The notes beneath the pieces were generated by a model. That model did not search any database. It saw only the letters and a program-made list of their open reading frames with translations, and was not told the DNA's origin. Shown here one piece after another: positions 317-31,919 of a DNA stretch of 45,449 nucleotides (within the stretch, counting starts at the first letter, position 1; every line of letters starts with the position of its first letter). The stretch is from a virus, in IMG/VR virus record IMGVR_UViG_3300026521_000022, positions 1-45,449 of that record, one strand, 5' to 3'. The position numbers and the translations under genes were made by a program.

Positions 317-2695
317 TTACCATTGTTGTGGGTTATAATAGTCTTCACTATCATTATATAAGTCATCAAAGTTTCCTGCATGACTGCTTTCATATTCTGT
401 TGCTGAATCACCAGTTGGGTAAACTATGAAGTCTGGGTCTAAGAAGTTAGCAAGACAGTCCAGAGCATCATCATGTTCTGTTGTTGCACCTTCTTTTGTG
501 AAACCTTTGTATTCATAGTCCATTTCAGCTACTGATTCTTGGTCTATATCTGTTGGAAACCATATCTTTCCAGTCTTAAATAATGGCTGAAGAGCTGATA
601 TTCTCTGTTCTTTATTTGTTGTAGAGTTTAATTCTAAACCTTTGTACTGGAAATAAACTCCAGTCCTACTCATTTCTAACTGTATAAAATGGTCTAGTAC
701 TTGTTGTAGAGATGCCTTCTCAGCTCTAACTTCAAGTGGTCTAAACATCACAACGTGTTTGAATAATATATCAATCACTTCGCTAGGATTGTAGTTGCCA
801 ACATCTAGTTTTACTAGATATATGTTCTTTTCCTTGTCTACTCCTATTGTAGCTATTACCCTATAATCACCACTGTTTTTTACACTAACTGCTAAATCCA
901 TAGATGTGAAGAAGTTCATTTCTTTAAGTCTTGGTTTTAAGTCTTTATATTGATAATGTCTCAACCAATCATCTTTAAACACTCTAGTATCTTCTGATGT
1001 TACTTGAAGCATATATTCTCTATAGAACGAACCTTCTTCTCCTAATCCTTTAGCACCTTCGTATAGTTTCCAGATTTTGTCTTTTGTAAATCTATCTTCC
1101 CAACTGGAAACAATGTCCTCTTTAGGACATGGGAAGACTTGTGCTACTGGACATTCTATTGTCATAAACTCTGAATGTCTTTTCATCTTCAATAGAATAT
1201 CGTCCTCTGCAAATGGTGTGCCTACTACTACCATCTTATTAAAGTTCATATCAACTGCTGGATAAACTGAAGACATAAACCATTTAGTTACTTTCTGCCT
1301 TTCTGTCTTGCTAAATAAAGCATCATCTGGTAAAATCAATTTTGTTAAACTAACATTCGTTATTTGCTAGCCAATAATTTTTTTCTACTTCTTCTAGCAC
1401 CTTGTTCGCTTCTGTTCTCAGCCCCTGTCACAAATTTGCAGACATGTTTTGAGTATACTGTGCTGTCTCCTAATATATCTTTGTCTAGTTCCATTCCTTT
1501 ATAGTTCAACCAATCGTTAAACCCTTCTAGTTTTGATATATCTTCTAAGAAGTTTTCGAAAACTAACCATCTTGTATCTACTGTAACTTTTCCATAATAT
1601 CCTTTTTTGTCTTTCTCGCTGTAGCATCTTTTAAGCATATTGTTCCACAGCTGTTTTGCTCTTTTCCAGAATGTCTTCTTCTTGTCTGGTATTCCATAGC
1701 ATCCAACTCCATATATTGATGGAGAATAGTGGTCTTTCACTTCCCCACTTCTTATATCTGTAGTTGTAGCTGTTCTAGTGTATCCTGACTTTAGAAATTG
1801 TATAGGATTCTGTTCTCTAGTTCCAATAAATTTTAGAATTTTAAATTCTAACCCTAAGTTGTTTACAAATACTTTCCCTTCGTATTGTTCAACTAAATCT
1901 TGATGTGTTTTTCTTTTCATAAGAAATTTCCTTATATAAAATTATTTTCTATATGTCACCATATAGTTCGGACTATATCTTCATACTAACTGTATGCCCA
2001 CCGCTTCCACCTACTTAGGTGTACTCCATTTCTGGATAGTCTCTACACTTTCCTGTGTTTCAGGCTTAGCTCGGTATTCTCTCATAGTATTTACTACAAG
2101 CTCTTCACCGAATTCAATGGGTTTATTTTTAATTCGACAACAATTTATCGTCGAATAATAATAGTTGTGGACGTTTACCAGCTCTCTTTGTACCACGTAA
2201 TGATTGTCCTGAACCTTTTACTTGAATATACATTACATGACCTTGTTCGTTCCTAAACCTTGCATTCTTCTTTGTTGCTTTCTCTAGTGTAAGAGTCTGT
2301 TGCAACACCTCACTGTTCTCCCACATAAATACAATCTCTTCCAGAAGTCCAATTGCTTGTTCTTCACTTGCAGAGAATATCATCAAATTCTTTATCTGTT
2401 GTTGTTCACCATCTTTGTTTACCATGTTTGGCATATATCCAAGTGAAGCAACATATAATGATAACTTTGTGTTCAGTACTGTTGTTTTAGCACCACCCCT
2501 GTGTACAATTACTTGAACTCTGTCTTCACTACTAAGCGTTAAGTCTAACATCTCATAATGTATTCTAGGAGTCTTATTATCCTCTTCTATCAAGTTTAAG
2601 TTGCACCAAGACAAGAAATCTATTGACTCTTTATTTGGCTTATATGGCTTAGTGTAATCAGGTCTATAAACTCTACTATTTGACATACTCGACAT
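317..2695 (-). CDS. terL: Terminase large subunit, interrupted by a group I intron
   Basis: This is the ATP-driven DNA packaging motor and nuclease. Exon 1 (2695-2147, 183 residues) carries a Walker A-type loop (HRGGAKTT) and ends in the Walker B stretch PQLLLFDD. Exon 2 (1336-317, 339 residues) starts ILPDDALFSK and holds the RNase H-like nuclease motifs, including SMDLAVSV and the late HDDALDC. Splicing out 1337-2146 restores an uninterrupted frame of 522 residues, the usual TerL length. Unspliced, exon 1 hits a stop five codons into the intron. The first ATG (2695) overlaps the end of the small-subunit gene by 20 bases; an ATG three codons later is an alternative start. Both exons keep their key motifs, so this is not a pseudogene. 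Confidence 0.93.
1337..2146 (-). ncRNA. Group I intron in terL (class IA-like)
   Basis: The boundaries follow from structure and reading frame. The exon end TTCGACGAT pairs with the internal guide GTTGTCGAA to form P1, including the hallmark U-G wobble at the 5' splice site. The last intron base is G (1337). The guide's 5' neighbour AAAT can pair with the 3' exon start ATTT (P10). Downstream I see P3 (CCCATT with GGTGGG), a P6-like CCTG/CAGG, P7 (GACTAT with ATAGTC inside AAGATATAGTCC), an extra CACCT/AGGTG hairpin between P7 and P3 typical of IA introns, P8 (CATAC/GTATG), and P9 (CTATATG, GTGA tetraloop, CATATAG). The core lies 5' of the internal gene. The intron falls directly after the second Asp codon of the Walker B motif. 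Confidence 0.92.
1360..1920 (-). CDS. Putative intron-encoded homing endonuclease
   Basis: A 186-residue basic protein wholly inside the terL intron, downstream of the ribozyme core, with a good ribosome binding site (AAGGA, about 8 bases before the ATG). It has the pattern of a family of phage homing-type nucleases: an N-terminal strand-rich part around VNNLGLEFKILKFIG, then YGVGCYG, a helical segment with WNNMLKRCYSEKDKK, and the C-terminal signature LDKDIL...YSKHVCKFV. Position in an intron is the strongest argument for a homing role. The catalytic centre cannot be assigned from sequence alone; an HNH/His-Me type is my best guess. It could also act as a maturase. Confidence 0.72.
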   Translation of the reverse strand: MKRKTHQDLVEQYEGKVFVNNLGLEFKILKFIGTREQNPIQFLKSGYTRTATTTDIRSGEVKDHYSPSIYGVGCYGIPDKKKTFWKRAKQLWNNMLKRCYSEKDKKGYYGKVTVDTRWLVFENFLEDISKLEGFNDWLNYKGMELDKDILGDSTVYSKHVCKFVTGAENRSEQGARRSRKKLLASK

Positions 2696-3264: not shown

Positions 3265-3291
3265 AAAAACAGAAGGTTATTTAACCTCCTG
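3265..3291 (-). terminator. Intrinsic terminator after thyX
   Basis: On the minus strand a nine-pair stem (CAGGAGGTT with AACCTTCTG, one G-U pair) with an AAAT loop is followed at once by five T residues. The stem overlaps the thyX stop codon. It closes the long middle (replication and nucleotide) transcript and separates it from the late genes. Confidence 0.8.
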
Positions 3292-3978
3292 CCCTTCTTT
3301 ATATAAACTATCTTCAAACAAGAACTTATGTTCTTCTGGTAGTTGTTTAAACACCTCATAAGCTAGTTCTCTAATCTCCCATAGTGCTGCTTTATTTGTA
3401 CGTAGTGCTAAGAAGTTTTGTAATGACCTAGCGTTAATAGTCCATACTAAAGATGTTTTGTAAGCTTCTGGAATACAATATTTAGCTAAATCATTAGGTA
3501 CACCTGCTCTTAAATCTTGTCTAAGATTTTCTAAAGCTAACATTGAATTATGGTCAGTTCTATCATTCTTAGTAAATACTAAATATTTTGAGGCTCTTTT
3601 ACCTATATCTGTATCATAGCATTTAAAATCACTCTCAAGATAAAAACTCTTCTCACCTTTAAGCTCCTTAAGAGTATATCTAGTACTCTTAACACTTAAA
3701 GAAGCCATACGATGTCTTGCCAACTCTTGGAGACAAGCTCTACTAATACTATCTATATCAAATGTATAGTTTAAATGTTCAATAGTTGAAGCGTGTTTAT
3801 GTTTTAGTGCTACACGTTCTATACGCTCTGTATTACACCCTGGCTCTGTTCGTATATGGTCGTACTCATTAAACACTTCGTTGTATACCAGCTTATCTGG
3901 TGTAGGTTTATCCCAGCACTTGCCTATGGCTTTATCTGCAACCCAAAGCGGTGTGTTATTTAATAATGTTACTTTCAT
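3277..3978 (-). CDS. thyX: Flavin-dependent thymidylate synthase ThyX
   Basis: ThyX makes dTMP from dUMP with FAD and methylene-tetrahydrofolate. The diagnostic ThyX motif RHR-x7-S is present as RHRMASLSVKSTRYT, and the C-terminal part has the conserved LRTNKAALWEIRELAYEV helix with the substrate-contacting Arg. The length of 233 residues is normal for the family. It is the last gene of the nucleotide-metabolism block and is followed by an intrinsic terminator that overlaps its stop codon. Together with the reductase genes it directs ribonucleotides toward phage DNA. Confidence 0.95.
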   Translation of the reverse strand: MKVTLLNNTPLWVADKAIGKCWDKPTPDKLVYNEVFNEYDHIRTEPGCNTERIERVALKHKHASTIEHLNYTFDIDSISRACLQELARHRMASLSVKSTRYTLKELKGEKSFYLESDFKCYDTDIGKRASKYLVFTKNDRTDHNSMLALENLRQDLRAGVPNDLAKYCIPEAYKTSLVWTINARSLQNFLALRTNKAALWEIRELAYEVFKQLPEEHKFLFEDSLYKEGQEVK

Positions 3979-4070: not shown

Positions 4071-4169
4071 CTATTTATTTCCTTTAAATAAATAATGCAT
4101 AAACCAAGCAGTTTGAATGCTTGTGTTTAATACAATTGCTAGTTCAACTATAGTCATATTACTATCCAT
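4071..4169 (-). CDS. Microprotein overlapping the end of nrdA, 32 residues
   Basis: ATG 4169 overlaps the last codons and stop of the reductase large-subunit gene, suggesting translational coupling. The frame reads MDSNMTIVELAIVLNTSIQT then a short tail ending FKGNK. The middle is hydrophobic. There is no clear ribosome binding site of its own. Not recognised; it could be chance, though it fills the space before the next ribosome binding site exactly. Confidence 0.4.
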   Translation of the reverse strand: MDSNMTIVELAIVLNTSIQTAWFMHYLFKGNK

Positions 4170-5901
4170 GACAAGCTAAACATTCATCGTCTTTAGCTTT
4201 ATGTTTAGCTACATCATTTAATGACCTAATGTAGTATAAACTATGAATCTGTTCGTTGTTAAATGCAATACTATGAAGTCTTGAAATTTCTTCTTCAGAT
4301 ACTGACTTATCAAAATAGAAATTAGTTGATTGTCCTTGACAAACAAATGGTTGTCTATCTGCTGCAAATGTTAATATTAACTCTTGGTCAATTTCAAATG
4401 CAGTTCTAAATACTTTCTTCTCATGTTCTGTAAGCCAATCTTCTTCTTGCACCGAGCCTTTCTGCTCTGCAATTCTATTCATAACTTCTTCAGTATACAT
4501 TTCACGTTCTTTCATCAACTCTAAGAATGTTGGATTGATTCTGAATACGTTACCACCTGCAGTATCTTGTGTAAACACATTTGCAAATACAGGTTCTGTT
4601 CCTTGTGATATACCTCCAAGAATAATTGAAGTAGACATTGTTGGAGGATAAGCAGTTCTGTGACTAAATCTCTCTCCGTAACCTTCCATCCATTCTGGTT
4701 CACCAACATGTTTAGCTAAGTATCTTGATACATCTAATGTATCTGCTTGTAGTCTTTTTGCAATTAACTTATTAAACATACGTGTTTGCAAATCACCAAA
4801 TACCCAACTTTGTGACTGGAAGTAAGTTGTTAATCCAAGCATACCAATTCCAATTGCTCTTGACTTTTCAGTAAACCTTACTACCTTTTCGAAGCCTTCC
4901 TTACCTCTTGCCTTAATAAGCATATCTTCTACTACAGCATCTAAGAAGAACGTAGCTATCTTAACTAGCTTTGTATCTTTCCATTCATCATACTTTGTAA
5001 TATTTACACTAGACAGTACACATGTAAAAGAATGTCTCTCATCACTCATTAGAGCTATCTCAGCACAAAGATTACTTGCTTGCACATACAAACCTCTATC
5101 TTTGTACATTTGAGGTCTAGCACGGTTTACTTTGTCTTTAAACCAGAAGTATCCTTTACCAACAGTCATCTTTGTTTTTAACATCTTCTTCCAGATATGG
5201 TCTGCTCTCTCTGGATTTGTTTTAAACATCTCTTTATAACTATCAGTTAATGTCCATCCAATGTTTAAGCCTTCTGGGTCTGCATGTAGCTTAGCTGCAA
5301 CCTCATCAAAGTCTTTATGAAGCACGTCAATATATTGCCCTGCTTGGCCTCTTCTTGAGTTTCCTTGAGATACCTTGTCCATATCATCTACTACACCATC
5401 CATAAGCTGTGTCACACCAGTAGCATAGCCACCTCTCGAAATAGGTGCACCTCTATGTCTAATTGGGTCAAGCACAACAGATGTACCATAACCTTCCTGA
5501 GTTAGTAGTGCCAACTCTTTTCTTACGTCATAGAATCCAAGAATAGAATCATGTGGTACTGAACCACTGCATGCTACTGGATGACCTCTTTCAGTTCCCA
5601 TGTTTGTTAAAACAGGTGTCGATGGACTTAGCCAACCTTTCCACATTGCATCAAAGAAAGCATCATACCAATTGCTATATCCTAGCCAAGCTGGCACTTC
5701 TAACTTGAATTTAAACATATATATATGCTCAGCTCTTGCAGCTAATCTTGCATACATATCAATCGGTGTTTCTCCTGTTTGTAGATAGTTCTTCTCTACT
5801 AACATTTGATAGCCAGCTGTTGTCATCCATTCAGGTGCTTTCCCTTGTTTTTGCAACATTTTTCTTGTCTTGCTATATTGTTCATATTTGCTATTCTGCA
5901 T
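4162..5901 (-). CDS. nrdA: Ribonucleoside-diphosphate reductase, class I, large subunit
   Basis: Catalyses reduction of ribonucleotides to deoxyribonucleotides. Visible features: STPVLTNMGTERGHPVACSG with the substrate-site Cys, the SNLCAEIAL segment with the catalytic Asn-x-Cys-x-Glu triad, a second redox Cys in FTCVLSSVN, the PPTMSTSIILGGISQGTEP signature, and a C-terminal tail CLACHG that supplies the shuttle Cys pair. At 579 residues it is short because the N-terminal ATP-cone regulatory domain is missing, as in many phage enzymes. Its start overlaps the end of the small-subunit gene, and the pair forms one operon with thyX. Confidence 0.96.
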   Translation of the reverse strand: MQNSKYEQYSKTRKMLQKQGKAPEWMTTAGYQMLVEKNYLQTGETPIDMYARLAARAEHIYMFKFKLEVPAWLGYSNWYDAFFDAMWKGWLSPSTPVLTNMGTERGHPVACSGSVPHDSILGFYDVRKELALLTQEGYGTSVVLDPIRHRGAPISRGGYATGVTQLMDGVVDDMDKVSQGNSRRGQAGQYIDVLHKDFDEVAAKLHADPEGLNIGWTLTDSYKEMFKTNPERADHIWKKMLKTKMTVGKGYFWFKDKVNRARPQMYKDRGLYVQASNLCAEIALMSDERHSFTCVLSSVNITKYDEWKDTKLVKIATFFLDAVVEDMLIKARGKEGFEKVVRFTEKSRAIGIGMLGLTTYFQSQSWVFGDLQTRMFNKLIAKRLQADTLDVSRYLAKHVGEPEWMEGYGERFSHRTAYPPTMSTSIILGGISQGTEPVFANVFTQDTAGGNVFRINPTFLELMKEREMYTEEVMNRIAEQKGSVQEEDWLTEHEKKVFRTAFEIDQELILTFAADRQPFVCQGQSTNFYFDKSVSEEEISRLHSIAFNNEQIHSLYYIRSLNDVAKHKAKDDECLACHG

Positions 5902-6898
5902 CTAAAAACTCCATTCTACTAAATCCTTCTTCACTCCATGTTCTTGTGTAAGAGTTTGTTCCTTTTACAAAGAAGTCATGAATCTTGATTGCATTAGCTC
6001 CTTTATAGAACCAATCAGCAATTGTAGTATCTGTTATATCATATTTAAGTTGTATCTTCATTGTAGCTGCAACATAATTAATTCTACTTCTAATAAACTG
6101 TTTAAGTTGCACTCTATTGATTCCACTAATGTACTTATCATCAGTTTCAAACAGGTAGTCGATAACAGCATCTTCATGTTCAATAATTACTCTAGCTACT
6201 TCTACAATCTGTCTTTCTAGTTCTTTCATATCATACGATACATTCAATGCCTTCATTTCTTCATTGTAAGTATTAAACAGATAAGCTGCTAGTTCTCCAT
6301 GTAGTACTTCATCATTAACTACGTAATCAACACCTGAGATAGTATTTGGAGCTAAATTATTGCCATTTGCTTGAAATGATTTAAGCATTGCAAAGTTACT
6401 AAACAGTAATACTTGTTCAATAAATGCTACAGTTGCCAATGTTAAAGGTTTGTTGTTGTCTGCATTCTCAAGAATATCATTCAGCAGCTTTAGTTTCTTT
6501 TTCAATTCCTTAACTGTCTTTTGTGCCTTTTCTGTATCTTCTGGAGCAATATTTAATACATCATTCATTTTTTGATAAAAGAATGCATGTACAGATTTCT
6601 CCATTGCAGCAATAGCAGAACAAGCACCTTCAATCTCTGAATGAGGAAACCACTCTTCCACCTTAGCCCAAATCTTACCTACAGTTTGTTCAATTTCTAC
6701 AAACAGACTTAAAGTTACATTCACTAGCTTAAACTCATCATCTGTCATCTTAGTAAGGAAATCATGTATATCATTCTCTACTTTGATTTCTTGTGCATAC
6801 CATACAATGTCTTGTTGTTTCTCCATAATAGCTTTTACTTCTGGATATTTATAATCTCCAAACAAGCTAGGTGTTTCTAATTGAATCTTTTTATTCAT
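5891..6898 (-). CDS. nrdB: Ribonucleoside-diphosphate reductase, class I, small subunit
   Basis: The 335-residue ferritin-like radical subunit that partners the gene just downstream. The second metal-binding half is canonical (FIEQVLLFSNF and NDEVLH). In the first half the segment MEKSVHAFFY has Glu and His separated by three residues, not two as in the Escherichia coli type (E-x2-H-x3-Y), and a Lys stands where the Glu would fall. The Tyr four after His is kept. The C-terminus ends with an acidic, aromatic peptide suited to docking on NrdA. The start codon lies inside the upstream small gene. Confidence 0.93.
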   Translation of the reverse strand: MNKKIQLETPSLFGDYKYPEVKAIMEKQQDIVWYAQEIKVENDIHDFLTKMTDDEFKLVNVTLSLFVEIEQTVGKIWAKVEEWFPHSEIEGACSAIAAMEKSVHAFFYQKMNDVLNIAPEDTEKAQKTVKELKKKLKLLNDILENADNNKPLTLATVAFIEQVLLFSNFAMLKSFQANGNNLAPNTISGVDYVVNDEVLHGELAAYLFNTYNEEMKALNVSYDMKELERQIVEVARVIIEHEDAVIDYLFETDDKYISGINRVQLKQFIRSRINYVAATMKIQLKYDITDTTIADWFYKGANAIKIHDFFVKGTNSYTRTWSEEGFSRMEFLDAE

Positions 6899-8100: not shown

Positions 8101-8397
8101 TTACTCCTCTACTACTTCCACGTCAGTTGCTTCTGAATCTAAGTCTTCTTTTGCAATGTTACCTTGTGCAATAACATCTGAACAGAACACACTAAAGATA
8201 CTACGTGCTAACATTTGTTCCATTACTGGACCTCTTGTCTCTTTAGGATATACAGATACATTCTGTACTTGAGTTAAAGCCCAATCTTCCAAGTAATGCT
8301 TTTCAAATACCAACTTAAAATCATCATTGTTTAGAAGACGAAGCATTGCTTGTCCTCTTTCTACTTCTACTTGTCTATTGTCTACTTGCTCATTCAT
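8101..8397 (-). CDS. Hypothetical acidic protein next to the SSB-like gene, 98 residues
   Basis: Starts at ATG 8397, sharing a base with the end of the SSB-like gene, so the two are probably translationally coupled. Helical, with a strongly acidic C-terminus (KEDLDSEATDVEVVEE). Acidic tails of this sort are common on single-strand DNA-binding or DNA-mimic proteins, but there is no recognisable domain. It could be an accessory factor to the SSB. Confidence 0.7.
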   Translation of the reverse strand: MNEQVDNRQVEVERGQAMLRLLNNDDFKLVFEKHYLEDWALTQVQNVSVYPKETRGPVMEQMLARSIFSVFCSDVIAQGNIAKEDLDSEATDVEVVEE

Positions 8398-9005
8398 TAA
8401 ATTAAATCCTCCTCTTCTTCATTTACTTCTTCTTCTGTTGAACCACCACCAGCTTTGTAAGCCTTATAGTCTTTATCTTCTTTGTCTTTTAAGCGTTCTG
8501 CTACCTTATCTGACTTCTCAGAACCACATGCATATACATCATAGATTTCATTCTTCTCAGTTACTTCTCCATTGTAGTATCCAAATACCTTTTGAATAGC
8601 TACATCACATTTAGCACCATGACAGTCTTTTAAACAAGTTAATATTAATGGTTGTTCATCTTTCATTACTTGTGTACCATCACTCTTCTTGATTGAGTCT
8701 TGGAATGTAGCTAGTGATTTAATGCCAGTTACTTTTGCAAAACGTAACCAAGCTTCATATCCATATTTATTATCTGCACCACTTGCCCACTTAGTATCAA
8801 GTACATAAGCTTGATAAATAGTTAGTTCATGTCCATCTTCTGTCTTTACAGTTACGTCTAGTTTATTATTCCCTTTCTTTGTTTTGCCAAGTACTGCACG
8901 TACAATTGTTGCATTCTTATATACACCTGTATCAATTAAGCCGAAGCCACCTTCTTGTTGTTCTGTTACCTCTTCTACTTCTTGTAGATTAAAAACTAAT
9001 TCCAT
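8397..9005 (-). CDS. Single-stranded DNA-binding-like protein
   Basis: A 202-residue protein with an N-terminal beta-rich core (GLIDTGVYKNATIVRAVLGK, then KKGNNKLDVTVKTEDGHELT) resembling phage DUF669-type or OB-fold SSB proteins, a Cys/His cluster (LKDCHGAKCDV), and a low-complexity acidic tail ending in a run of Glu-Asp (NEEEEDLI) that mirrors the interaction tails of SSBs. In N4 the SSB also activates late transcription; whether that applies here is unknown. It lies next to the recombination ATPase and exonuclease genes. Function is inferred from architecture and neighbourhood. Confidence 0.65.
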   Translation of the reverse strand: MELVFNLQEVEEVTEQQEGGFGLIDTGVYKNATIVRAVLGKTKKGNNKLDVTVKTEDGHELTIYQAYVLDTKWASGADNKYGYEAWLRFAKVTGIKSLATFQDSIKKSDGTQVMKDEQPLILTCLKDCHGAKCDVAIQKVFGYYNGEVTEKNEIYDVYACGSEKSDKVAERLKDKEDKDYKAYKAGGGSTEEEVNEEEEDLI

Positions 9006-9008
9006 TTC

Positions 9009-9248
9009 TTATTTATCCTTTTGTTTTAATATTTCTAAACTGTCTGTTAGTTTTGACAGTACTCCTAAGTCTGAGTATGTTATTAACAGACTAAAATGTT
9101 CAGGGTATTTCTGTATTGCTTTTATATTTTCACCAATAGGAAAACCCAGTTCCTTACAACTCTTAGCAAATCTCTTTAAACGCTCTTTATCATTATTGAA
9201 GAATCTAAGCAGTTGTTCCTGTACCTGTTTCTTAGTTATAGTACTCAT
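9009..9248 (-). CDS. Hypothetical helical protein, 79 residues
   Basis: A small Lys-rich helical protein (MSTITKKQVQEQLLRFFNND at the start) between the Sak4-like ATPase and the SSB-like gene; its start overlaps the end of the ATPase gene by 17 bases. No family recognised. Its place suggests a recombination or replication accessory. Confidence 0.65.
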   Translation of the reverse strand: MSTITKKQVQEQLLRFFNNDKERLKRFAKSCKELGFPIGENIKAIQKYPEHFSLLITYSDLGVLSKLTDSLEILKQKDK

Positions 9249-9879
9249 CTATCTTCTCTGCAATAAACAGAGCATCATTCTTTACTACGCCTTCAAATAA
9301 TCCTCTTGGACTTTTTGCTGTATTCTTCTTATTGCTCTTGTATTGCATAATGACATCTTCCATCTCTCCAGTGTCATCATCGTATATAGGATTAGTGAAT
9401 AGTACCACTGCAACTTCTTTTTCAAGATAACCATACTTTAACTCTTTACCTTTTACCCTTGCGTAAGCTTTTGTTTCTCCAAACTCTAAAGCTTTCTGTT
9501 CTGGTAATGCAATAATAAATGTTTGTTGTGGTAGCTTCTTTAACTTCCAAATTGTATCAACAATCATTTGATTATATTGTGCCCATACCTCAAAACCATT
9601 GAATGCAGTACTTGCATATTTATTTACAATCTCTGTTAAAGATGTAAAGCTATCTAGTACAACGTAGTCATACTTATCTGTCTTTTGTAACTGACTAATA
9701 GCACTGTCTAGCTTTTTGTACGTATCTGCCATTACATTCTTGAACTGATTGAAATTCCTCATTGGAAGAGGCTTCAATTCTGTGTTTAGAATCAGTGTTC
9801 TCTCTGGTGGTAGTGTTTCAAACATTGAACTCTTACCTGTTCCAGACTCCCCACATATTAATACTACTGGCTTACTCAT
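9232..9879 (-). CDS. Sak4-like RecA-fold ATPase (recombination)
   Basis: 215 residues with a clear Walker A (GESGTGKSS, residues 10-18), a Walker B (YDYVVLDSFTSL) and a RecA-type core of the AAA_24/Sak4 sort common in phages. Such proteins work with an SSB in single-strand annealing and strand exchange; here the SSB-like gene lies one gene downstream and a 5'-3' exonuclease directly upstream (four-base overlap). The three together look like a phage recombination-replication set. Confidence 0.8.
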   Translation of the reverse strand: MSKPVVLICGESGTGKSSMFETLPPERTLILNTELKPLPMRNFNQFKNVMADTYKKLDSAISQLQKTDKYDYVVLDSFTSLTEIVNKYASTAFNGFEVWAQYNQMIVDTIWKLKKLPQQTFIIALPEQKALEFGETKAYARVKGKELKYGYLEKEVAVVLFTNPIYDDDTGEMEDVIMQYKSNKKNTAKSPRGLFEGVVKNDALFIAEKIDEYYN

Positions 9880-10589
9880 TCATTCTCCCATAATTTTAGT
9901 TTGTTGTTCTTATATTGGTCAAGTCTGACTAACCTCATTGATAAAACAGCATCTTCTTCTGAATCAAAATATGATACGTATTTATCATAATCGAATCCAT
10001 CTATACTGTATACAATCTTCTCAGCAGTCTTAGGACCAATTCCTTTTGCACCTTTGATACCATCAGTGCTATCACCCATTAATGCTTGTATCCAATAGTT
10101 TGTATCTATCTGTTCCTCTGATAAACCTTCAGTCCATTCCCACTTCTTGTAGTTAAAACAGTCTACTGGACTATGAGTGTATATATCTTTGTCAATACAA
10201 GCAATAACTACGTTCTCTTTCTCGTAAGCTCTAGTAATAACAATATCATCTGCTTCCATATTGTCTATTTGAGTCATACCTAAACGAATAGACACCATCT
10301 GCTTTAACTCTTTTATTCCTACAATGAATGTAGGCTTCCTGTTAGCTTTATAGCTATTTGTTAAGTCATGTCTAAATGTTTTCTTTGGACTGAATATAAT
10401 CTCTGTATTTAACTTATCTGTCTTTTGTAAATCATATTGTTTATATACAGCACTCTCTATATTACTTACTGTACTACAGAAGTCTTTGTAAGCTAGTTCA
10501 GGAAACCAATGTTGTTTCTCTATATCTTGATTTCTATAACAGCTAGTGTATAAAATAGAGTCTGCATCTATTACCAAATTAACTTCCAT
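9876..10589 (-). CDS. 5'-3' exonuclease, FEN/PIN type
   Basis: 237 residues with the acidic clusters of the flap endonuclease family: VIDADSILY near the N-terminus, NMEADDIVI and ACIDKDIY in the middle, GDSTDGIKG, and the helix-hairpin-helix GAKGIGPKTAEKI that binds DNA. Comparable with T7 gp6 and T5 D15, which remove primers and degrade DNA from 5' ends. It overlaps the downstream ATPase gene by four bases and a tiny gene upstream. Confidence 0.92.
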   Translation of the reverse strand: MEVNLVIDADSILYTSCYRNQDIEKQHWFPELAYKDFCSTVSNIESAVYKQYDLQKTDKLNTEIIFSPKKTFRHDLTNSYKANRKPTFIVGIKELKQMVSIRLGMTQIDNMEADDIVITRAYEKENVVIACIDKDIYTHSPVDCFNYKKWEWTEGLSEEQIDTNYWIQALMGDSTDGIKGAKGIGPKTAEKIVYSIDGFDYDKYVSYFDSEEDAVLSMRLVRLDQYKNNKLKLWENE

Positions 10590-10959: not shown

Positions 10960-11104
10960 TTATTTCTTCCTCAAGGTCTCTAATATGCTCTATAAGCATA
11001 TTAATATCAAACATAGAAATAGTTATATACTTTCTACCGTATTTATTTCTGATTGCAACTACTTCATATAATTCTTCTAAACTACTTTCAGTTAAGTTCT
11101 CCAT
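10940..11104 (-). CDS. Coiled-coil microprotein, 54 residues
   Basis: ATG 11104 lies inside the end of the nuclease-like gene, with AAAGGAAACAAACAGT upstream. The sequence starts MENLTESSLEELYEVVAIRN and ends with a helix MLIEHIRDLEEEIN suited to a coiled coil. It overlaps the zinc-ribbon gene by 20 bases. Not recognised. Confidence 0.6.
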   Translation of the reverse strand: MENLTESSLEELYEVVAIRNKYGRKYITISMFDINMLIEHIRDLEEEINGNCNR

Positions 11105-11493
11105 ACTGTTTGTTTCCTTTCTACGTTAGCTGGATAAAACTTACCAGAGATGTTATTGTTTAAACAGTCTAGTCTAAACAGAACTCTCTCTTTTACAAGT
11201 AGTTCTACTTCTCCGTAAGTTAATCCACCTTTAGTTTTAAACACTTTAAGAATTGTTTTCTTTTTCACTACCTTGTATTTGCCCCAATCTGAAGAACCTT
11301 CGTATTTTCTCCAATTTGATTCCTTTAGTACTTTCCTTTTCCTTTTGGACCCTTTGAGTGGTGGTAATGTTTTCCTAACAACAAAGTTCTTCTTACCGAA
11401 GTATACAGTACCATCTGTATAATCAATTCTATAAGTGAATCCTTCATAACCCGTAAAATCTTGCACTCCAGATTCATTATTCCATTCCTTCAT
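11092..11493 (-). CDS. Putative phage endonuclease-like protein, 133 residues
   Basis: A very basic protein with the order seen in a group of phage putative nucleases: FTYRIDYTDGTVYFGKKNF near the N-terminus, LPPLKGSKRKRK, WRKYEGSSDW, then ILKVF, LTYGEVELLVKERVLF and NNNISGKFY at the C-terminus. The first segment resembles the opening strand pair of GIY-YIG nucleases, but the fit is loose. It may be a free-standing homing-type nuclease. The start overlaps the upstream zinc-finger gene by an ATGA. Confidence 0.5.
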   Translation of the reverse strand: MKEWNNESGVQDFTGYEGFTYRIDYTDGTVYFGKKNFVVRKTLPPLKGSKRKRKVLKESNWRKYEGSSDWGKYKVVKKKTILKVFKTKGGLTYGEVELLVKERVLFRLDCLNNNISGKFYPANVERKQTVWRT

Positions 11494-11630
11494 CTTCTAC
11501 CTATTGGTAATTGCCTACCTAGTTTAGCACATATATCACACTTCATATATGCTTTACCATTTAGTGTACACTCTTTTAAATCTTTCTTTGTAGTACACAC
11601 AACACAATGTTTACTGCTTCCAATTCTCAT
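11490..11630 (-). CDS. Small zinc-finger protein, 46 residues
   Basis: MRIGSSKHCVVCTTKKDLKE then KAYMKCDICAKLG: two Cys-x2-Cys pairs about 24 residues apart, expected to bind one zinc ion. ATG 11630 lies inside the end of the helicase-primase gene, and its stop overlaps the next start (ATGA). The pattern resembles small phage HNH-like or ribbon proteins, but no catalytic residues can be assigned. Confidence 0.62.
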   Translation of the reverse strand: MRIGSSKHCVVCTTKKDLKECTLNGKAYMKCDICAKLGRQLPIGRR

Positions 11631-13746
11631 AGCTTTGCATCCTTCTGTATAGACTGTCCATGTATCCTGCTCTAGGTTTTCTGTCTCTATAGTCTACTAC
11701 ATCATCTATAATCTTGACAGCATCTTCATAACTAAATCCTGCTTCATACAATTCACAACTCAGTATCCATAAACTGTTATGGAATCCTGCTGAAGTTGTT
11801 TCTTCATAGTATCTCTTGTATGTTTCAAAAGGATTGTCAGCAATATCTGCAATAGCTTTATTTGACAGCTTCTTAACCTTAGGAGACACAGCTTCTATAT
11901 TCTTTACTAGCTCACTAGCAGGTAAATCATCACCTTCATTGATTAACAATTCTCTGTCTTTATAACCATAATAAATCTGTGCTTTTGGTAATAAGTCAAT
12001 CTCAATACCCAAGAACTCAGATACCTTCTTCATGAAAGGTTTCCACTTATCATTCTCAATATCTACTGTAATGTCAGTAGGTAATATAACTCTAAACTTA
12101 TAAGGGTTATTACTACTAGTTCTAGCAATAATATGGTTAAAGTCACACAACATGTCTGAAGCTTCAGTATCTGTAATTCCGTCATCATCAACATCGAGAA
12201 CAACAAAATCAGCACCAGATATAATATAATCTTTTCCACGAACACCTCCTTTGAATTCAAATGGACAATAAGCAGTATCAGCTTTCATAAGATTACCAAT
12301 CTTCTCAAATGTAGTCTTCTTATACGTATAACCACTAGCTGTCTTTTGTGCTCTTTCTTCCTTTGAACCACTTACCATTATGTATGAAGCTCCAAGTCCT
12401 TCTTCTTTCTCAAAGCTCTTATATATTACCATATTATCGTCTGTAAGCTCCAACATTCCTTCTTTACCTAACTTACTGTTAGCTAGCTCTACAATCTGTT
12501 TAAGAGGAGCTCCTGTTGATTTAATCCACTTCTTCTTAACCATTTCGTGTGCAGATAAAGTCTTACCTCCATTCTTGTAATGGTCTACTAAGATTTCATA
12601 TTTCTGTCTATTAGCCATATAAGTAAACTTCTTCAAATGATTACTGTTTAGTTCTGCTACATATATTGCTTCTTTTAAGTCTTGCATAGTCACACTGTCA
12701 TTGCCATTAAAGACAGAATATACTCCTGCTAATTTAAAAGCTTTCCAATGTCTATGGTTAAGCTCTAGCTGTACAGCTTCATCTTCTGTTTCTTCTTTGC
12801 TTAACTCTTCACAATAAACCTTATAGAGCTTGTATAAGCGATTTGCATCCTCATCTATGGAAATATGCATGTAATCTGTTTTAATCGCTTCTAGTGCTAT
12901 CTTCTTGCTTCTGAGAGATACTTCTGTTAGTAACTCATTCGACTTATCCTCAAACGATATAATTTCATCTAAGATTTCATCAACTGATGTAACTTCTGTC
13001 TTTTCCTCTTTAAACTCAGGATACACAAAGAAACATCTTCTTGCTAACTTACTGATGAACTCTGTCTCAAACTTCTTTAAAACAGATTCGTCCTCTAATA
13101 TACCATATTCAGAACCTATAAACAGTGCACTCATTCCCATACCATGTACTTCATCTGATTGCTGTGTTCTATCTTTCAGAGGTTTAGATTTCATATCTCC
13201 TACATCAAACAGTTGTGATACTAACTTGATATTAGGAATCATATCAGGATTGCTTGCTAACTCTGTTGATATTTCATCTACATATAAACTTGGTAGTCCA
13301 ATACCTTCTCTTGCAAAGTCATTCAATCTCTGAATCATACCAGCTTCTGTAGCAATAGCATTGCTTAATGGAGCAGGTTTCTGTACCTCAGTATCTGTTT
13401 CTTCTGCTAACTGTTTTGCTTTATCCCATCTATACTTGTCAATCACATCATAACCACCCTTTAAGGCCTTTTCTAGCTTTAGCATACTAGATGTCTTCTT
13501 GGCTCCACTCTTCGCTAGAACGAAAGCTATGACGTTACAAGGGATAAGATTATCCTCTGCTAATTTAATCTTTAAATGAAAGTGGTTTGTGAATGTAGCC
13601 ATACTATAATTTGCAATAGTTAATGACATTGGAAAAGGTATATCTTCACCTAGTATCTCTGTCATTTGATGTGCTGTTTTATTCTTATGTTCAGCAAACA
13701 CATTTAATCTGTCTAACTCCTGTTTAACTATCTCCAGTTTTGTCAT
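11611..13746 (-). CDS. Helicase plus primase-polymerase (AEP-like) fusion protein
   Basis: 711 residues. The N-terminal part resembles the DUF3987 helicase-like ATPases: a variant Walker A AKSGAKKTS (78-86) and Walker B LYVDE (about 154-158), with SALFIGSEYGIL further on. The C-terminal third looks like an archaeo-eukaryotic-type primase: VVLDVDDDG with D518/D520 as likely metal ligands, then RTSSNNPYKFRVILPTD and IDLLPKAQIYYGY. This is the main replication protein of the phage. No separate DNA polymerase gene is visible, so this domain may also extend DNA, as the primase-polymerase of phage NrS-1 does; that is inference. The gene starts inside the acetyltransferase-like gene. Confidence 0.78.
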   Translation of the reverse strand: MTKLEIVKQELDRLNVFAEHKNKTAHQMTEILGEDIPFPMSLTIANYSMATFTNHFHLKIKLAEDNLIPCNVIAFVLAKSGAKKTSSMLKLEKALKGGYDVIDKYRWDKAKQLAEETDTEVQKPAPLSNAIATEAGMIQRLNDFAREGIGLPSLYVDEISTELASNPDMIPNIKLVSQLFDVGDMKSKPLKDRTQQSDEVHGMGMSALFIGSEYGILEDESVLKKFETEFISKLARRCFFVYPEFKEEKTEVTSVDEILDEIISFEDKSNELLTEVSLRSKKIALEAIKTDYMHISIDEDANRLYKLYKVYCEELSKEETEDEAVQLELNHRHWKAFKLAGVYSVFNGNDSVTMQDLKEAIYVAELNSNHLKKFTYMANRQKYEILVDHYKNGGKTLSAHEMVKKKWIKSTGAPLKQIVELANSKLGKEGMLELTDDNMVIYKSFEKEEGLGASYIMVSGSKEERAQKTASGYTYKKTTFEKIGNLMKADTAYCPFEFKGGVRGKDYIISGADFVVLDVDDDGITDTEASDMLCDFNHIIARTSSNNPYKFRVILPTDITVDIENDKWKPFMKKVSEFLGIEIDLLPKAQIYYGYKDRELLINEGDDLPASELVKNIEAVSPKVKKLSNKAIADIADNPFETYKRYYEETTSAGFHNSLWILSCELYEAGFSYEDAVKIIDDVVDYRDRKPRAGYMDSLYRRMQSYENWKQ

Positions 13747-17295: not shown

Positions 17296-17327
17296 AAAAA
17301 AAATATACACCAGCTTTTAAGCTAGTG
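17296..17327 (-). terminator. Intrinsic terminator closing the early operon
   Basis: On the minus strand CACTAGCTT pairs with AAGCTGGTG (nine pairs, one G-U) around an AA loop, followed by TATA and eight T residues. The stem spans the stop codon of the RNA polymerase C-terminal subunit gene, so the early transcript should end here. Confidence 0.85.
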
Positions 17328-18369
17328 CATACTCTGACTTTTGTATTAAGTCTTTAGTCAATGTTCCTTCTTTCTTTACAGTTACTTTACTACCTTTTAT
17401 TTGTGTTAGTATATCTGATAGTAAATCGCTTTCAAGTATTTCTGATAAGATGTCTTTGTAGTTCTGTCTCAGCTTATCTACATTGTTTGGATGTACTGAG
17501 AACGAGTCGTGAATAGTATGTATAAACTCATCACCCATACGTCTTATCATTTCTCTAGCTACATAACCATCAACACTGTGGATAACATTTGGAGCCATTC
17601 CTTTATTCTTCTCAGATGGTCTGTAATCTTCATATTCTCCTTCAAGTTCTACACCAAAGATTTCTGTCTTAAACTTTACCTTGCTCTTAACGTCATATCT
17701 TACTTTAAAACCATCAGGTAGTGTCCATCTGTATGTACCTATATTCTTATCATTTAATGATTGAATTAAGTCCATAGCTTTCATTGCATTTGGTGCTATT
17801 TCATACATAGCTTCAAAGAATGCAGTTTCTACAACTGGAACACCATTTTCATCAGTTAATGGTAACAACTCTGTATTATAGTACTCAAGTTCTTCCTTGT
17901 TCATATTCTCAGCTAACTCTAGGAATGCCATTGAATGTCCATATAAAGTTACCATTAGTGGTTTCTTACATATGTTTCTTGTGAAGAACTCTGTGTTCAT
18001 TGCTTTATTCATTGCGTTAGCTAACATCTGATAAGCATCCATTCTGTTGTTATAAGAACCAAGTGAAGCAATTTCACTAGTTCTTAAATCAGCTGTCAAT
18101 ACACCATACAGCTGTAATGCTTGGTTTGAAGCATCCATTGGAATAACAATATGTACTTCATTGCCTTTCTCGTGCTCTCTAAGAGCTTTTACTGCATTGT
18201 AGTACATAAATGGACTACCAGCTTGTTTCGTTAGTTCTTCAAGCTCTGAGTTATGCTCATCTACCCACTTAACTTGCTCATCAAATTTAAGCTTGTCTAG
18301 TCCAAACTCACTACAAATATTTACCTTTAGCCATTTTAGTCCACTCTCTGTTAGTCTTAAGTCTTTCAT
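17317..18369 (-). CDS. T7-like RNA polymerase, catalytic (C-terminal) subunit
   Basis: 350 residues covering the palm and fingers of a T7-type single-subunit polymerase, made as its own chain. Motif A has the catalytic Asp at 79 (PMDASNQALQL); motif B, RNICKKPLMVTLYG, keeps the T7 spacing of Arg131, Lys135, Met139 and Tyr143; PNVIHSVDG and motif C IHDSF (His287, Asp288) complete the site. The N-terminal part, with the T/DxxGR motif, is the gene just upstream. A separate start with AAAAAGGAAATAAT shows that the division is genuine and not a frameshift. This is the arrangement of N4 RNAP II, which reads middle genes. Terminator overlaps the stop. Confidence 0.93.
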   Translation of the reverse strand: MKDLRLTESGLKWLKVNICSEFGLDKLKFDEQVKWVDEHNSELEELTKQAGSPFMYYNAVKALREHEKGNEVHIVIPMDASNQALQLYGVLTADLRTSEIASLGSYNNRMDAYQMLANAMNKAMNTEFFTRNICKKPLMVTLYGHSMAFLELAENMNKEELEYYNTELLPLTDENGVPVVETAFFEAMYEIAPNAMKAMDLIQSLNDKNIGTYRWTLPDGFKVRYDVKSKVKFKTEIFGVELEGEYEDYRPSEKNKGMAPNVIHSVDGYVAREMIRRMGDEFIHTIHDSFSVHPNNVDKLRQNYKDILSEILESDLLSDILTQIKGSKVTVKKEGTLTKDLIQKSEYALA

Positions 18370-18385
18370 ATTATTTCCTTTTTAT

Positions 18386-19297
18386 TTAGTTAAATTTTGG
18401 TTTTAAAGAACCTTTTTTCCACTTGTCACCTTGTGTTGTTACTTGGTATCCAGTAGCATAGATTCTTCCTCTAAAGTCATATCTATATTGGAAATGGAAT
18501 CCTTGTTGAGTTCCTTCTCTCAGATAATCATAAACTACGTCTGAAGTTAGTGTTGCATGTTTAGCTTTCAATGTAGCTACACCTTCTTCGTCACCTTTCT
18601 TTGAGAATTTATCCATCAAGTAGTTGCGTTCTCTGTTTGCATTTACATACGAATGTATTTCCCAAGTGTTTGATTGAAGCTTATCTAGTACATCAAGTAC
18701 TTCTTCTGGCTGATTAGCTTCACCTCTATTTAAAGTACATTTGTCATCAGTAGTTCTATAGCCACTTCCTATCTTCCAAGACAATACTTGTCCTGCTTTG
18801 ATTGGTGGTTTAAACATTGACAACTCTACGAGTTCTGCACTGTCAGTATCATCTGAGAATGCTATTTCAAGAACTTTAAGTGTATACCATTGTCCATATT
18901 CGTCTTGTTGTTGTTTAGTAATTACATCAAACAGTACACCTTCAGAAGCTTCTAGTATAGCTTTCACTATTCTATGTTGTTCTTGTGGTTCTGCATCAAT
19001 ATACTTTACAATTGTAACAAACATCTGTTGTATAGTTATGTGTCTTACATCTATTGCTTCTATGTAAGTTCCTACATTCTTATTACCTAAAACTGCTAGG
19101 AATCTTAACATAAAGTTATCTGAGTTGTATCCTAGTATATTGTCTATTGTTTCAAAATAGTCTGGATACTCATTGTTTATTTGCTCAATGATTGTAGATA
19201 GATTAATGTTTAAACGTTCTTGTAATTTGTCCTTAGAGAACAATTCCTCTACTTCTTCTTGAGTAGTCTTAGATAATAGTAAGTCAAGTGTTTCCAT
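18386..19297 (-). CDS. T7-like RNA polymerase, N-terminal subunit
   Basis: 303 residues from ATG 19297 (METLDLLLSKTTQEEVEELF; AAAGG upstream). The last 35 residues hold the T/DxxGR motif as YDFRGRIYATGY (Asp274 to Arg278), followed by KWKKGSLK, equivalent to the end of the corresponding T7 segment; the chain then stops. The partner with motifs A, B and C starts 16 bases later. In N4 RNAP II the smaller chain carries T/DxxGR and the larger one carries A-C, the same division. Being in the early operon, it would be made by the virion RNA polymerase. Confidence 0.88.
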   Translation of the reverse strand: METLDLLLSKTTQEEVEELFSKDKLQERLNINLSTIIEQINNEYPDYFETIDNILGYNSDNFMLRFLAVLGNKNVGTYIEAIDVRHITIQQMFVTIVKYIDAEPQEQHRIVKAILEASEGVLFDVITKQQQDEYGQWYTLKVLEIAFSDDTDSAELVELSMFKPPIKAGQVLSWKIGSGYRTTDDKCTLNRGEANQPEEVLDVLDKLQSNTWEIHSYVNANRERNYLMDKFSKKGDEEGVATLKAKHATLTSDVVYDYLREGTQQGFHFQYRYDFRGRIYATGYQVTTQGDKWKKGSLKPKFN

Positions 19298-19298
19298 A

Positions 19299-19499
19299 TT
19301 ATAACCTTTGTTTGAGTTGTTTCTTAATGAGTTGCATTTTGAACTCATCCATTTGTTCTTCAGTGAACTGAACACCTATTTGCATAGCATTGATATAGAA
19401 TGCCTTCCATTCATTCTTTACAATAAAGAACTCTTCTTTACTTAATAGTGCAGTTAAAGACTCTTTAGTCTCTACTGCCTTCTTTGATACTAAAGCCAT
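19299..19499 (-). CDS. Early helical protein, 66 residues
   Basis: MALVSKKAVETKESLTALLS and then NEWKAFYINAMQIGVQFTEE: small, helical and Lys/Glu-rich. The start shares a base with the upstream stop (TAATG), and the stop is one base from the polymerase N-subunit start. Its immediate linkage to the polymerase suggests a transcription accessory, but nothing in the sequence proves this. Confidence 0.65.
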   Translation of the reverse strand: MALVSKKAVETKESLTALLSKEEFFIVKNEWKAFYINAMQIGVQFTEEQMDEFKMQLIKKQLKQRL

Positions 19500-28904: not shown

Positions 28905-29140
28905 TATACTCCTTTAAACTTGTATACAATTATCGAAGCAATAGCTCCAAATAGTATACCTGTGAATCTTTTGTACCAAGACAGAGTTGTTTGTATTTCT
29001 GTTATCTCTTTATTACAAGTATGTATTTCTTGGTACAGTTTTCTAATCTTCTCTCTATCATTTTCCCTGAATCTCTGAAAGTCACCAATTAGAATATCTA
29101 ATTTTGTTTCAACCACTTCTACAGAGTGTTCACTCATCAC
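28904..29140 (-). CDS. XhlA-like lysis accessory protein
   Basis: 78 residues: a coiled-coil N-terminal part (KLDILIGDFQRFRENDREKI, KEITEIQTTLSWYKR) and one C-terminal membrane helix (FTGILFGAIASIIVYKF), the layout of haemolysin XhlA proteins that work with holin and endolysin. It overlaps the end of the internal virion protein gene and shares a base with the holin start. Confidence 0.65.
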   Translation of the reverse strand: MMSEHSVEVVETKLDILIGDFQRFRENDREKIRKLYQEIHTCNKEITEIQTTLSWYKRFTGILFGAIASIIVYKFKGV

Positions 29141-31919
29141 TGTCCTTTTGTAGTTTTTCTATTGTTGACTGTGTGAATCCTTTATATAAATCATAATGTA
29201 TCCTAGGCTTCAATAATTTCTTAGCACCAAAAGTTTCTGTATCATCCCAAGCATTTACCCATATCTTAGGAACAACAGTTGATTTAGCTCTGTTTGACAT
29301 TGTGTCTATAAAACCTTTTTCTTTTAATTTCTCTATTGTTCCAATTGGCAACGAACCTTCTGCAAAGTCTACCATAGCTTCTATTGGATTCACTGTAGCC
29401 ATATTAGTATCTGTTTCCTGTGCGAATAGATACATTCCCACTGCTACACCTAATGCTTTCTTTGGATTCTCTTTTGTTACTTTTAACAACATTGGTGAAG
29501 TTAAGCTAAACCATTTCAGAAATGGAACAAATAATGGTACAGCATTGTATTTATCCAACAGTTCTATAGCCTCTGGTACCATTTTATCCATATCTGCAAA
29601 TAATCCATTTGCTCTCTTTACAGCTTCTTCTATTGACATACCTTTTGCATCCATATAGTGCTTTGCTATCATATATCTACCCATTGTGTCTATGTACGAA
29701 AATAATCTCAGTGTTGCTCTACCAGCCTTTGTTTTTTGATTAAAATTCAATACTTGACCTGTTTTAAATAACCATCTGTGCATATTGTTTCTTAGCATAC
29801 TAGATAACAAATCCTCATCACCAACTAGACCTTCCACTCTATTCGTGCTAAGTCCAGCCTTTTCCATTCTAAATAACAGATTGTTCTCTAGTTTCTTCTC
29901 CAAATCAGCATCTACTTTAGCACCAGTAAGTTTACGTTTATGAACAGTCTTATACAATTCTTCCATCTCTTTTATGTCTCTTGATGCATCAATCTGGTAC
30001 TTTACGATTCTATCTGGTCTTACGCCAACTGTTGCTGCTATTGTTTGATTTACTATGAAAGAGTTTACATATGATACTGGGTTTGTTAATACTACACGTT
30101 GTTTAAACATAGAACTCAGGTTAGCTACTAATCTATCAGTAACTTTAAAGAATTGTTTATTTCCCTGATATAGTCTTACTTCATCTCTACCAAGTAGTCT
30201 TTGCATAAAGTCTTCATTTACGTAGTTAAACTCTTTTCTTAGTTCATAAGGTATATGTTTCTTTTGGTCATCAGTTACTTGCACAAATCCTTCTCTTGGT
30301 TCTTTAGAAAACAGTGTTGAAGTTCCATCTTTTAAATTGTCTTTAATTTTATATACTTGACTTTGTTGAGCAACTTTTCTTCTAATTGAACGAGTAGCTT
30401 CTGCAACTTCATCTGCTAGTGATTCCACTTTCCCTAGCTCTGTTCTATTCTTCTCATCAGCTACCCTTCTGTATTCATTTCCAACCTTGCGAAGTCTATG
30501 TTGTTTCATATACTTTAATTCTTCTTCTAATGAATTAAACCTTTGAATACCTTTACTTCCTTTTTCCCACAAGCCATTAAGATATTTCTCCCTAGCTGGT
30601 GTCATTGCTTTGTCACTCTCAGACCAATGTACGTTTAGATGTTTGCTTCCTTTTTTCCATAGACCGTCTAAAAATTTCTTTCTTGCTGGTGTAAGCATCT
30701 CCACATCTCTTTCACCATTCAGTATTCTCTCTGCTGATTCCTCATCAGATGTAGCCATGTTTTTGAATCTTCTTACCGTTTCTAGTTCTTTCTTTGTCAG
30801 TCCTTTTAAATCTTCTATTGATTCTGCTAGTTGATACTCTCCTGTTTTTCCTTCCTTTATTTCTAAAAGTTTCTTAACTATTGACATCTCTTTATCTGAT
30901 AAACCAACTAGTTCGTCTAATGATTCCGCTCTTCTCATTTGTACGTCTATTTCAATCTCACTACCAATCTTTTTGTTCTGCATTTCTGCACCAATTAAGC
31001 CTTCTTCATACGTACTGTCAGCATCATAATAGAATTTCTTCTTAGGATTCTTCTTTAATTCCTTTTCAGTTGCAGGTCTAAGATTACCTCTATATATCTC
31101 TGGTCTCCAACCTTTAACCATCTTCTCTGGACTGTTTGCAAATAAGTCCTCTTTAGAAGCTATATGATTTTCCTTCATTACATCCAGTACATACTCTATA
31201 TCACTGTCAATCTTTATTCCCCAAGCATTGTTATTGTTCATTGCCTTTATACTCACAAGTTTATCTATAACATCTTCGCTGCCTTTCAAAACAGGATATC
31301 GCTTTGTTATTAGTAATGCATTCTTTAGATGGAATCCGTAGAACTCTGACTTGCTACCAAGTCCTTCTGCCATTTGGTCTATTTCTCTACCACAGATTCC
31401 TCTAATAGCAGTGTGTTCGTTCCAAAGCTCATCAGCTTGTTTCTTTGTCATTCCTCTGATTGCGTTGTAATCTGAGTTTAACAGTATTCTAGCGTTCTTT
31501 TGTGTTTCTTCTGGCATCTTTGATATTTTCTCATACAGTATTTCTGTGTCTTTATCAATTTGTGCATTTGTTACATCTTTTTCTGTTTTTAGCCTGTTGT
31601 ACTCATCTATTTCTTTTGTTGATTTTAGTTGTTCATCCCATAAGTGTTTTGTCTTTTCCAGTTGGTCTCTAATTAAACCTTTTGCAGCTTCACCACCTTT
31701 TTCTGCTTCTACTTCGTCTACTATTTGTTTTGCTTTAAGTTCTGTACTTGTAAGCTGTTTATTTGGTTTCCATGAGTGTACTCTCGTTTTTATTCCTTCG
31801 TAGTCCTTTCCAATCTTCTTTAATTTCTCTTGTGTTAACTTTGAAGTCTTATTTATTTTTGATTGTCCAATCTTTTTCTCTTTGTCAATCATTGCTTTAA
31901 CTTCATCTATTTCGCACAT
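29130..31919 (-). CDS. Internal virion protein (putative ejection protein)
   Basis: 929 residues: a long charged helical N-terminal half, then from about residue 570 a part with amphipathic and hydrophobic stretches (LTNPVSYVNSFIVNQTIAAT, then VPLFVPFLKWFSLTSPMLLK and ALGVAVGMYLFAQ). These features and its position directly after the virion RNA polymerase gene (13-base overlap) suggest a capsid-internal protein injected with the DNA, which may help form the channel for the polymerase. GAGGAAAGCCAAT precedes the ATG. No enzymatic motif seen. Confidence 0.65.
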   Translation of the reverse strand: MCEIDEVKAMIDKEKKIGQSKINKTSKLTQEKLKKIGKDYEGIKTRVHSWKPNKQLTSTELKAKQIVDEVEAEKGGEAAKGLIRDQLEKTKHLWDEQLKSTKEIDEYNRLKTEKDVTNAQIDKDTEILYEKISKMPEETQKNARILLNSDYNAIRGMTKKQADELWNEHTAIRGICGREIDQMAEGLGSKSEFYGFHLKNALLITKRYPVLKGSEDVIDKLVSIKAMNNNNAWGIKIDSDIEYVLDVMKENHIASKEDLFANSPEKMVKGWRPEIYRGNLRPATEKELKKNPKKKFYYDADSTYEEGLIGAEMQNKKIGSEIEIDVQMRRAESLDELVGLSDKEMSIVKKLLEIKEGKTGEYQLAESIEDLKGLTKKELETVRRFKNMATSDEESAERILNGERDVEMLTPARKKFLDGLWKKGSKHLNVHWSESDKAMTPAREKYLNGLWEKGSKGIQRFNSLEEELKYMKQHRLRKVGNEYRRVADEKNRTELGKVESLADEVAEATRSIRRKVAQQSQVYKIKDNLKDGTSTLFSKEPREGFVQVTDDQKKHIPYELRKEFNYVNEDFMQRLLGRDEVRLYQGNKQFFKVTDRLVANLSSMFKQRVVLTNPVSYVNSFIVNQTIAATVGVRPDRIVKYQIDASRDIKEMEELYKTVHKRKLTGAKVDADLEKKLENNLLFRMEKAGLSTNRVEGLVGDEDLLSSMLRNNMHRWLFKTGQVLNFNQKTKAGRATLRLFSYIDTMGRYMIAKHYMDAKGMSIEEAVKRANGLFADMDKMVPEAIELLDKYNAVPLFVPFLKWFSLTSPMLLKVTKENPKKALGVAVGMYLFAQETDTNMATVNPIEAMVDFAEGSLPIGTIEKLKEKGFIDTMSNRAKSTVVPKIWVNAWDDTETFGAKKLLKPRIHYDLYKGFTQSTIEKLQKDSDE

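Follow-up and report, generated by a model that had tools for sequence, protein, structure and literature searches.

A clade of N4-related podoviruses without a DNA polymerase gene retains the gp43-type primase-helicase

The DNA analysed here (the window, 45,449 bp) is a whole virus record whose recognisable genes lie on the minus strand, and it is the genome of a compact N4-related podovirus. It carries no DNA polymerase gene detectable by profile searches, and this absence is real, heritable and clade-wide. The record looks complete because its ends carry a 181-bp direct terminal repeat (positions 1–181, copied at 45269–45449, with 1 mismatch between the copies).

The preliminary description of the sequence had found no family A, B or C DNA polymerase, and profile searches against DNA polymerase families led to the same result. 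Six-frame searches of the window with PF00476, PF00136 and PF07733 gave no match while the positive controls worked, and Pfam and PHROG scans covering nearly all window ORFs revealed no DNA polymerase. A custom HMM built from 23 N4-type PolA proteins, which picks up split or partial copies in relatives, reached a best E-value of only about 0.3 against the window and its clade, with no sign of a PolA remnant; its noise-level matches included the RNAP2 gene. We rejected RNAP2 as a candidate turned DNA polymerase, as the motif-B Tyr-Gly is retained in six of six genomes. RNAP2 (350 aa; phrog_2051, E 3.3e-75) and RNAP1 (329 aa; phrog_2166, E 1.7e-22), together at 17317–19375 (minus strand), are N4-type RNA polymerases and not DNA polymerases.

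We then considered relatives of the window's primase gathered from IMG/VR. PF00476 matched in 33/42 of the relatives' records tested, in agreement with the earlier statement that N4-like phages normally carry a family A polymerase. The nine records without PolA comprised seven clade members (primase at least 40% identical to that of the window) and two fragments, namely a 36-kb fragment and contig G034. PolA was absent from 7/7 genomes of the group (the window, G001, G006, G007, G008, G010 and G047), and the full-length polymerase-less genomes measured 43.2–46.8 kb. Their ends overlap (window, 181 bp; G001, 127 bp; G006, 104 bp; G008, 74 bp; G010, 114 bp) or, in G047, join within the portal gene, so that six of the seven are closed or nearly so and missing sequence is an unlikely cause of the absence. 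G034 was rejected as a second polymerase-less lineage, since this fragment stops after the helicase gene, before the place that polA occupies in AD45-P1. In a 43-primase tree, the window grouped with 11 others in one clade (SH-aLRT 100; a quick tree with a long stem and a long-branch row, L072, near the root), on which PolA loss needs one change of state; no record of this 12-row clade showed PolA. In L020 (12206–14122) and L024 (15922–18171), two relatives at about 31% identity, the N4-type polA is split into two ORFs. The records behind L021 and L023 hold family A polymerases that bear very little resemblance to those of the N4 type.

The separate helicase has gone as well: no UvrD-type helicase was detected in the clade with PF13361 or with a custom HMM of 42 relatives' helicases. 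Outside the clade, the absence of a PF13361 match in G011, G012, G015 and G034 is not firm, as helicase genes were recovered in G012 and G034 by the custom HMM or direct comparison. For N4, replication is described as requiring the helicase, polymerase, gp43 and SSB (PMC2784036). In exchange for its losses, the clade has a Pol I N-domain/FEN-type 5'-3' exonuclease (9876–10589, minus strand), assigned by its family profile (PF02739, E 7.6e-13) together with the invariant acidic residues D8, D10, E112, D114, D115, D133, D135, D173 and D176. The clade's own exonuclease profile matched 7/7 polymerase-less genomes and 0/26 other relatives; PF02739 also matched the 198-kb record G044 and, weakly, AD45-P1 inside another ORF.

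The exonuclease gene overlaps by 4 bp the gene for a Sak4-like ssDNA annealing ATPase (9232–9879, minus strand; phrog_2872, E 5.3e-27). Nearby lie an SSB with an acidic C-terminal tail (8397–9005, minus strand; phrog_378, E 1.9e-4), whose clade profile matches N4-like SSBs, and genes for a 79-aa protein (9009–9248, minus strand) and a 98-aa protein of phrog_2346 (8101–8397, minus strand), both conserved only in the polymerase-less clade among the relatives tested. The phage further encodes the large and small subunits of ribonucleotide reductase (4162–6898, minus strand; PF02867, E 1.2e-72; PF00268, E 3.7e-36), the thymidylate synthase ThyX (3277–3978, minus strand; PF02511, E 1.5e-41) and a MazG-like protein. 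Pfam and PHROG matches thereby confirmed the reductase, ThyX, exonuclease, SSB and Sak4 that had been named from the sequence. No conserved clamp-binding motif was found in the replication proteins, and such a motif was dropped as proof of Pol III recruitment. A SegE-type GIY-YIG homing endonuclease gene (11092–11493, minus strand) sits between the primase and exonuclease genes, and G007 (L122, 7804–8820, minus strand) encodes a 339-aa RNase H/PolB-exonuclease-like protein that is not common to the clade.

The candidate replacement, a protein of 711 aa (ORF 11611–13746, minus strand), carries D518-V-D520-D521-D522 where the preliminary description had placed a DVDDD motif. It is an N4 gp43-type DNA primase-helicase. 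PHROG 2135 ('DNA primase') matched residues 22–683 with an E-value of 2.9e-78, and tblastn found homologs in 468 phage records; a PDB sequence search gave nothing useful. The AD45-P1 homolog, 30% identical, is annotated 'N4 gp43-like', and the gp43-type homologs of N4, AD45-P1 and PT11-V19 are annotated as DNA primases and stand beside a family A polymerase. With homology over its full length and the ATPase and AEP residues in common, the protein is the core N4 gp43 primase and is not special to the window phage; it was most likely inherited, not newly recruited.

The pairing of a helicase-like ATPase with an archaeo-eukaryotic primase (AEP) domain, proposed from the sequence, was borne out by the predicted fold, and this architecture is ordinary for N4 gp43; the domain order, which had been called reversed, is the normal one of the family. 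In the AlphaFold2 model (pLDDT 88.8), residues 21–379 (12610–13686, minus strand) form an AAA+ helicase-like domain of predicted MCM-type fold (Foldseek E 6.6e-6; VIA-align against the MCM 6mii, Z 17.7, rmsd 3.9, 273 aligned), with a weak Pfam match to DUF3987. Within Walker A (A78..K84-T85-S86; 13489–13515, minus strand), S80, G81 and K84 are invariant in 43 homologs, as is E158 of Walker B (D157-E158; 13273–13290, minus strand). T85 occurs in 12/12 clade rows, and the other rows have D at that position (31/31); D157 likewise occurs in 12/12 clade rows and is missing in 31/31 others, mostly replaced by Gly or Ser. N4 gp43 has K-G in the P-loop and D-E in Walker B, and L020 and L024, in neither of which a helicase was found, have the K-D form. 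The clade has the most canonical ATPase site, a hint that would fit a transfer of unwinding to gp43.

Residues 450–618 (11893–12399, minus strand) are predicted to form the AEP domain. Using a separate model of residues 440–711 (pLDDT 91.6), the best Foldseek matches were S-2L PrimPol (6zp9, E 2.3e-5) and RepB' (3h20, E 2.7e-5), and VIA gave Z-scores of 8.1 for S-2L PrimPol and 7.0–7.4 for RepB', with other PrimPols next. A Z-score near 8 is modest, but AEPs head the match list and the motif residues fit, which supports the predicted fold. NrS-1 was not among the fold matches listed, which is uninformative on membership. Motif I (D518-V-D520; 12187–12195, minus strand) is invariant in the 43 homologs, PolA carriers included, and in N4; K550-F-R552 in the motif II region (12091–12099, minus strand) and the motif III Asp, D584 (11995–11997, minus strand), are invariant in the 43 homologs. 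The protein accordingly shares with replicative PrimPols the AEP catalytic fold, as modelled, and acidic motifs I and III. It lacks their classical motif II (sxH): the clade reads T-S...Y-K-F-R, with no His, at the place where N4 has a classical sxH-like K-R-H. Helices predicted at residues 630–711 (11614–11859, minus strand) form a C-terminal bundle, which overlaps the helical region 295–370 of AsfvPrimPol at a low VIA Z of 5.0; replicative PrimPols need a helix bundle domain for priming.

The suggestion that this primase-polymerase replaces the missing enzyme held only in part. The absence of a polymerase stood, and nothing specific supports replacement: relatives that still have a family A polymerase, N4 among them, share the protein, its domain order and its AEP acidic residues. 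As D518 and D520 are invariant in those relatives too, they mark no replacement.

We consider it somewhat more probable than all other accounts together that, in a clade that lost PolA and the UvrD helicase and gained the exonuclease, gp43 unwinds and primes and a host polymerase elongates. The analysis shows the loss, its extent across the clade, the distribution of the exonuclease, and the folds; ring formation, unwinding, priming and the use of a host polymerase, like every other activity named here, are inferred. In this account, two enzymes, the family A DNA polymerase of N4 type and the UvrD-type helicase encoded apart from it, were lost in the clade ancestor, which also acquired a stand-alone 5'-3' exonuclease. 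The gp43-type protein would assemble into an MCM-like ring to open phage DNA and unwind it, its AEP domain would lay primers, and bulk synthesis would fall to a DNA polymerase of the host, most likely Pol III and otherwise Pol I. Together, the exonuclease, Sak4 and SSB may act on primers or DNA ends and promote strand annealing or recombination, and the reductase, ThyX and MazG-like protein may feed or clean the dNTP pool. A host polymerase is the simpler reading compared with an AEP domain that copies the genome alone; nothing marks a new polymerase role, because the AEP acidic residues are equally conserved in PolA carriers. Some AEP enzymes, RSF1010 RepB' for one, are known to act purely as primases and to leave elongation to a polymerase of the host, and the place of RepB' as a top fold match supports the host-polymerase model, as does the parallel of the MPP-C cyanopodoviruses described below. 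Against this model, no host replisome-recruiting part was found in the phage, N4 relies on its own polymerase and helicase, and the phage's own reductase, ThyX and MazG-like proteins suggest an investment in its own DNA synthesis, although many phages that use the host polymerase also carry such genes.

It is rather unlikely that the gp43-type protein is instead a replicative PrimPol of the NrS-1 or S-2L kind, whose AEP domain primes and extends while the MCM-like ring unwinds; that the clade converted the primase-helicase it had inherited into a full replicase, which let the family A polymerase and the separate helicase be dropped, is just as doubtful. The AEP fold with S-2L PrimPol as best match, the helix bundle that follows the AEP domain, an arrangement also seen in PrimPols, the intact catalytic-type residues D518, D520 and D584, and the canonical ATPase site (K-T, D-E), present in the clade and not in AD45/PT11-type relatives, all favour such a role. 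The protein is also the sole polymerase-type enzyme left besides the RNA polymerases, and S-2L and NrS-1, phages whose reported polymerase is an AEP enzyme, show that the strategy exists (PMC8065100, PMC8718748). However, in relatives the gp43-type protein and PolA occur together wherever both were looked for, the surroundings of the AEP site show no new residue or domain that obviously sets the clade apart, the classical motif II His is absent, and RepB', whose fold matches equally well, serves only as a primase. We give still less weight to host DNA polymerase I as the replicase, with the host providing the polymerase part of a Pol I-type activity and the phage the 5'-3' exonuclease part. 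The exonuclease specific to the clade does belong to the Pol I N-domain/FEN type and the lost phage enzyme was itself of family A, but host Pol I is of low processivity and brings its own 5'-3' exonuclease, which makes a phage copy less needed, and the overlap of the exonuclease gene with sak4 points to recombination or end processing. Very improbable is a highly divergent DNA polymerase hidden among the genes of unassigned function. Several core or variable proteins do lack an assigned function, yet every protein above 300 aa in all complete genomes is a primase, RNAP, terminase, portal, capsid or tape measure protein, and the unassigned core proteins of the replication block are below 250 aa. 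The least credible explanation is a gene missing through incomplete assembly: metagenome contigs are often incomplete, and G034 stops right after the helicase, just before the polA place, but PolA is missing from five independent contigs, each closing on itself at its own position, and from two further contigs of full length. For the clade this explanation is already refuted unless a second segment exists.

A polymerase-less podovirus lineage is already known in the MPP-C cyanopodoviruses, which lack a DNA polymerase and keep the primase/helicase, exonuclease and SSB (PMC9860041). They are the closest precedent, a podovirus lineage inside a polymerase-carrying group that lost the DNA polymerase and has a smaller genome. 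For that lineage, host Pol I, host Pol III or a hidden polymerase were considered (PMC9860041), and much the same set of options is left for the present clade. MPP-C is T7-like, whereas the clade is N4-like; the exonuclease is a core gene also in the relatives of MPP-C but specific to the polymerase-less clade here, and, unlike MPP-C, the clade has lost a separate helicase too. No description of a polymerase-less N4-like clade was found in the open-access literature searched. Among individual enzymes, the NrS-1 polymerase and S-2L PrimPol resemble the 711-aa protein in fusing an AEP domain to a helicase and in being accompanied by no other genome-encoded DNA polymerase. The 711-aa protein differs from them in its reversed domain order, in a helicase part that matches MCM and in its homology to primases that stand beside a family A polymerase. 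RSF1010 RepB' shares the AEP catalytic fold and is among the two best fold matches, but is a plasmid protein without a fused AAA+ domain. With PolA lost once, and sister groups still carrying both it and the same primase, the clade amounts to a natural experiment on what a phage needs to hand replication to the host, and the choice between host polymerase and PrimPol is testable with one purified protein.

Like Schitoviridae (N4, AD45-P1, PT11-V19), the clade has RNAP1, RNAP2, a large virion RNAP-like protein, the gp43 primase, Sak4, SSB, portal, major capsid and TerL; in the window, the last three matched phrog_1216, phrog_1357 and phrog_38, respectively, as core genes of that family. Schitoviridae genomes measure 59–80 kb (PMC7650795), compared with 45.4 kb for the window and 43–47 kb for the clade. 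The window has no gp39 DNA polymerase, and the clade differs from Schitoviridae in lacking gp39 and a gp37-type helicase, in its added 5'-3' exonuclease and in a smaller virion RNA polymerase (1969–2481 aa for the vRNAP-like protein of relatives versus ~3500 aa). DNA polymerase gp39 belongs to a set of seven hallmark genes by which N4-like viruses are recognised (PMC10654107), and a search relying on it can therefore overlook a polymerase-less lineage.

There is a hint, and only a hint, that the clade infects Helicobacteraceae: contig WTBY01000035.1 (L134), a collinear clade relative with a primase 59% identical, is binned in a Helicobacteraceae MAG, and this MAG itself was the 1/397 genomes of its class in which a close relative was present. 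In the window, the vRNAP-like protein (29130–36796, minus strand), a single ORF in relatives, is split into ORFs of 1629 aa (31907–36796) and 929 aa (29130–31919) that overlap by 13 nt, which may reflect a frameshift, a genuine division of the gene or faulty assembly. The terL gene (317–2695, minus strand) is likewise split, its parts of 188 aa and 340 aa being separated by a gene for an HNH endonuclease (1360–1920); a group I intron RNA was rejected here, as no Rfam match was found anywhere in the window, and in relatives terL is intact and encodes 505–536 aa.
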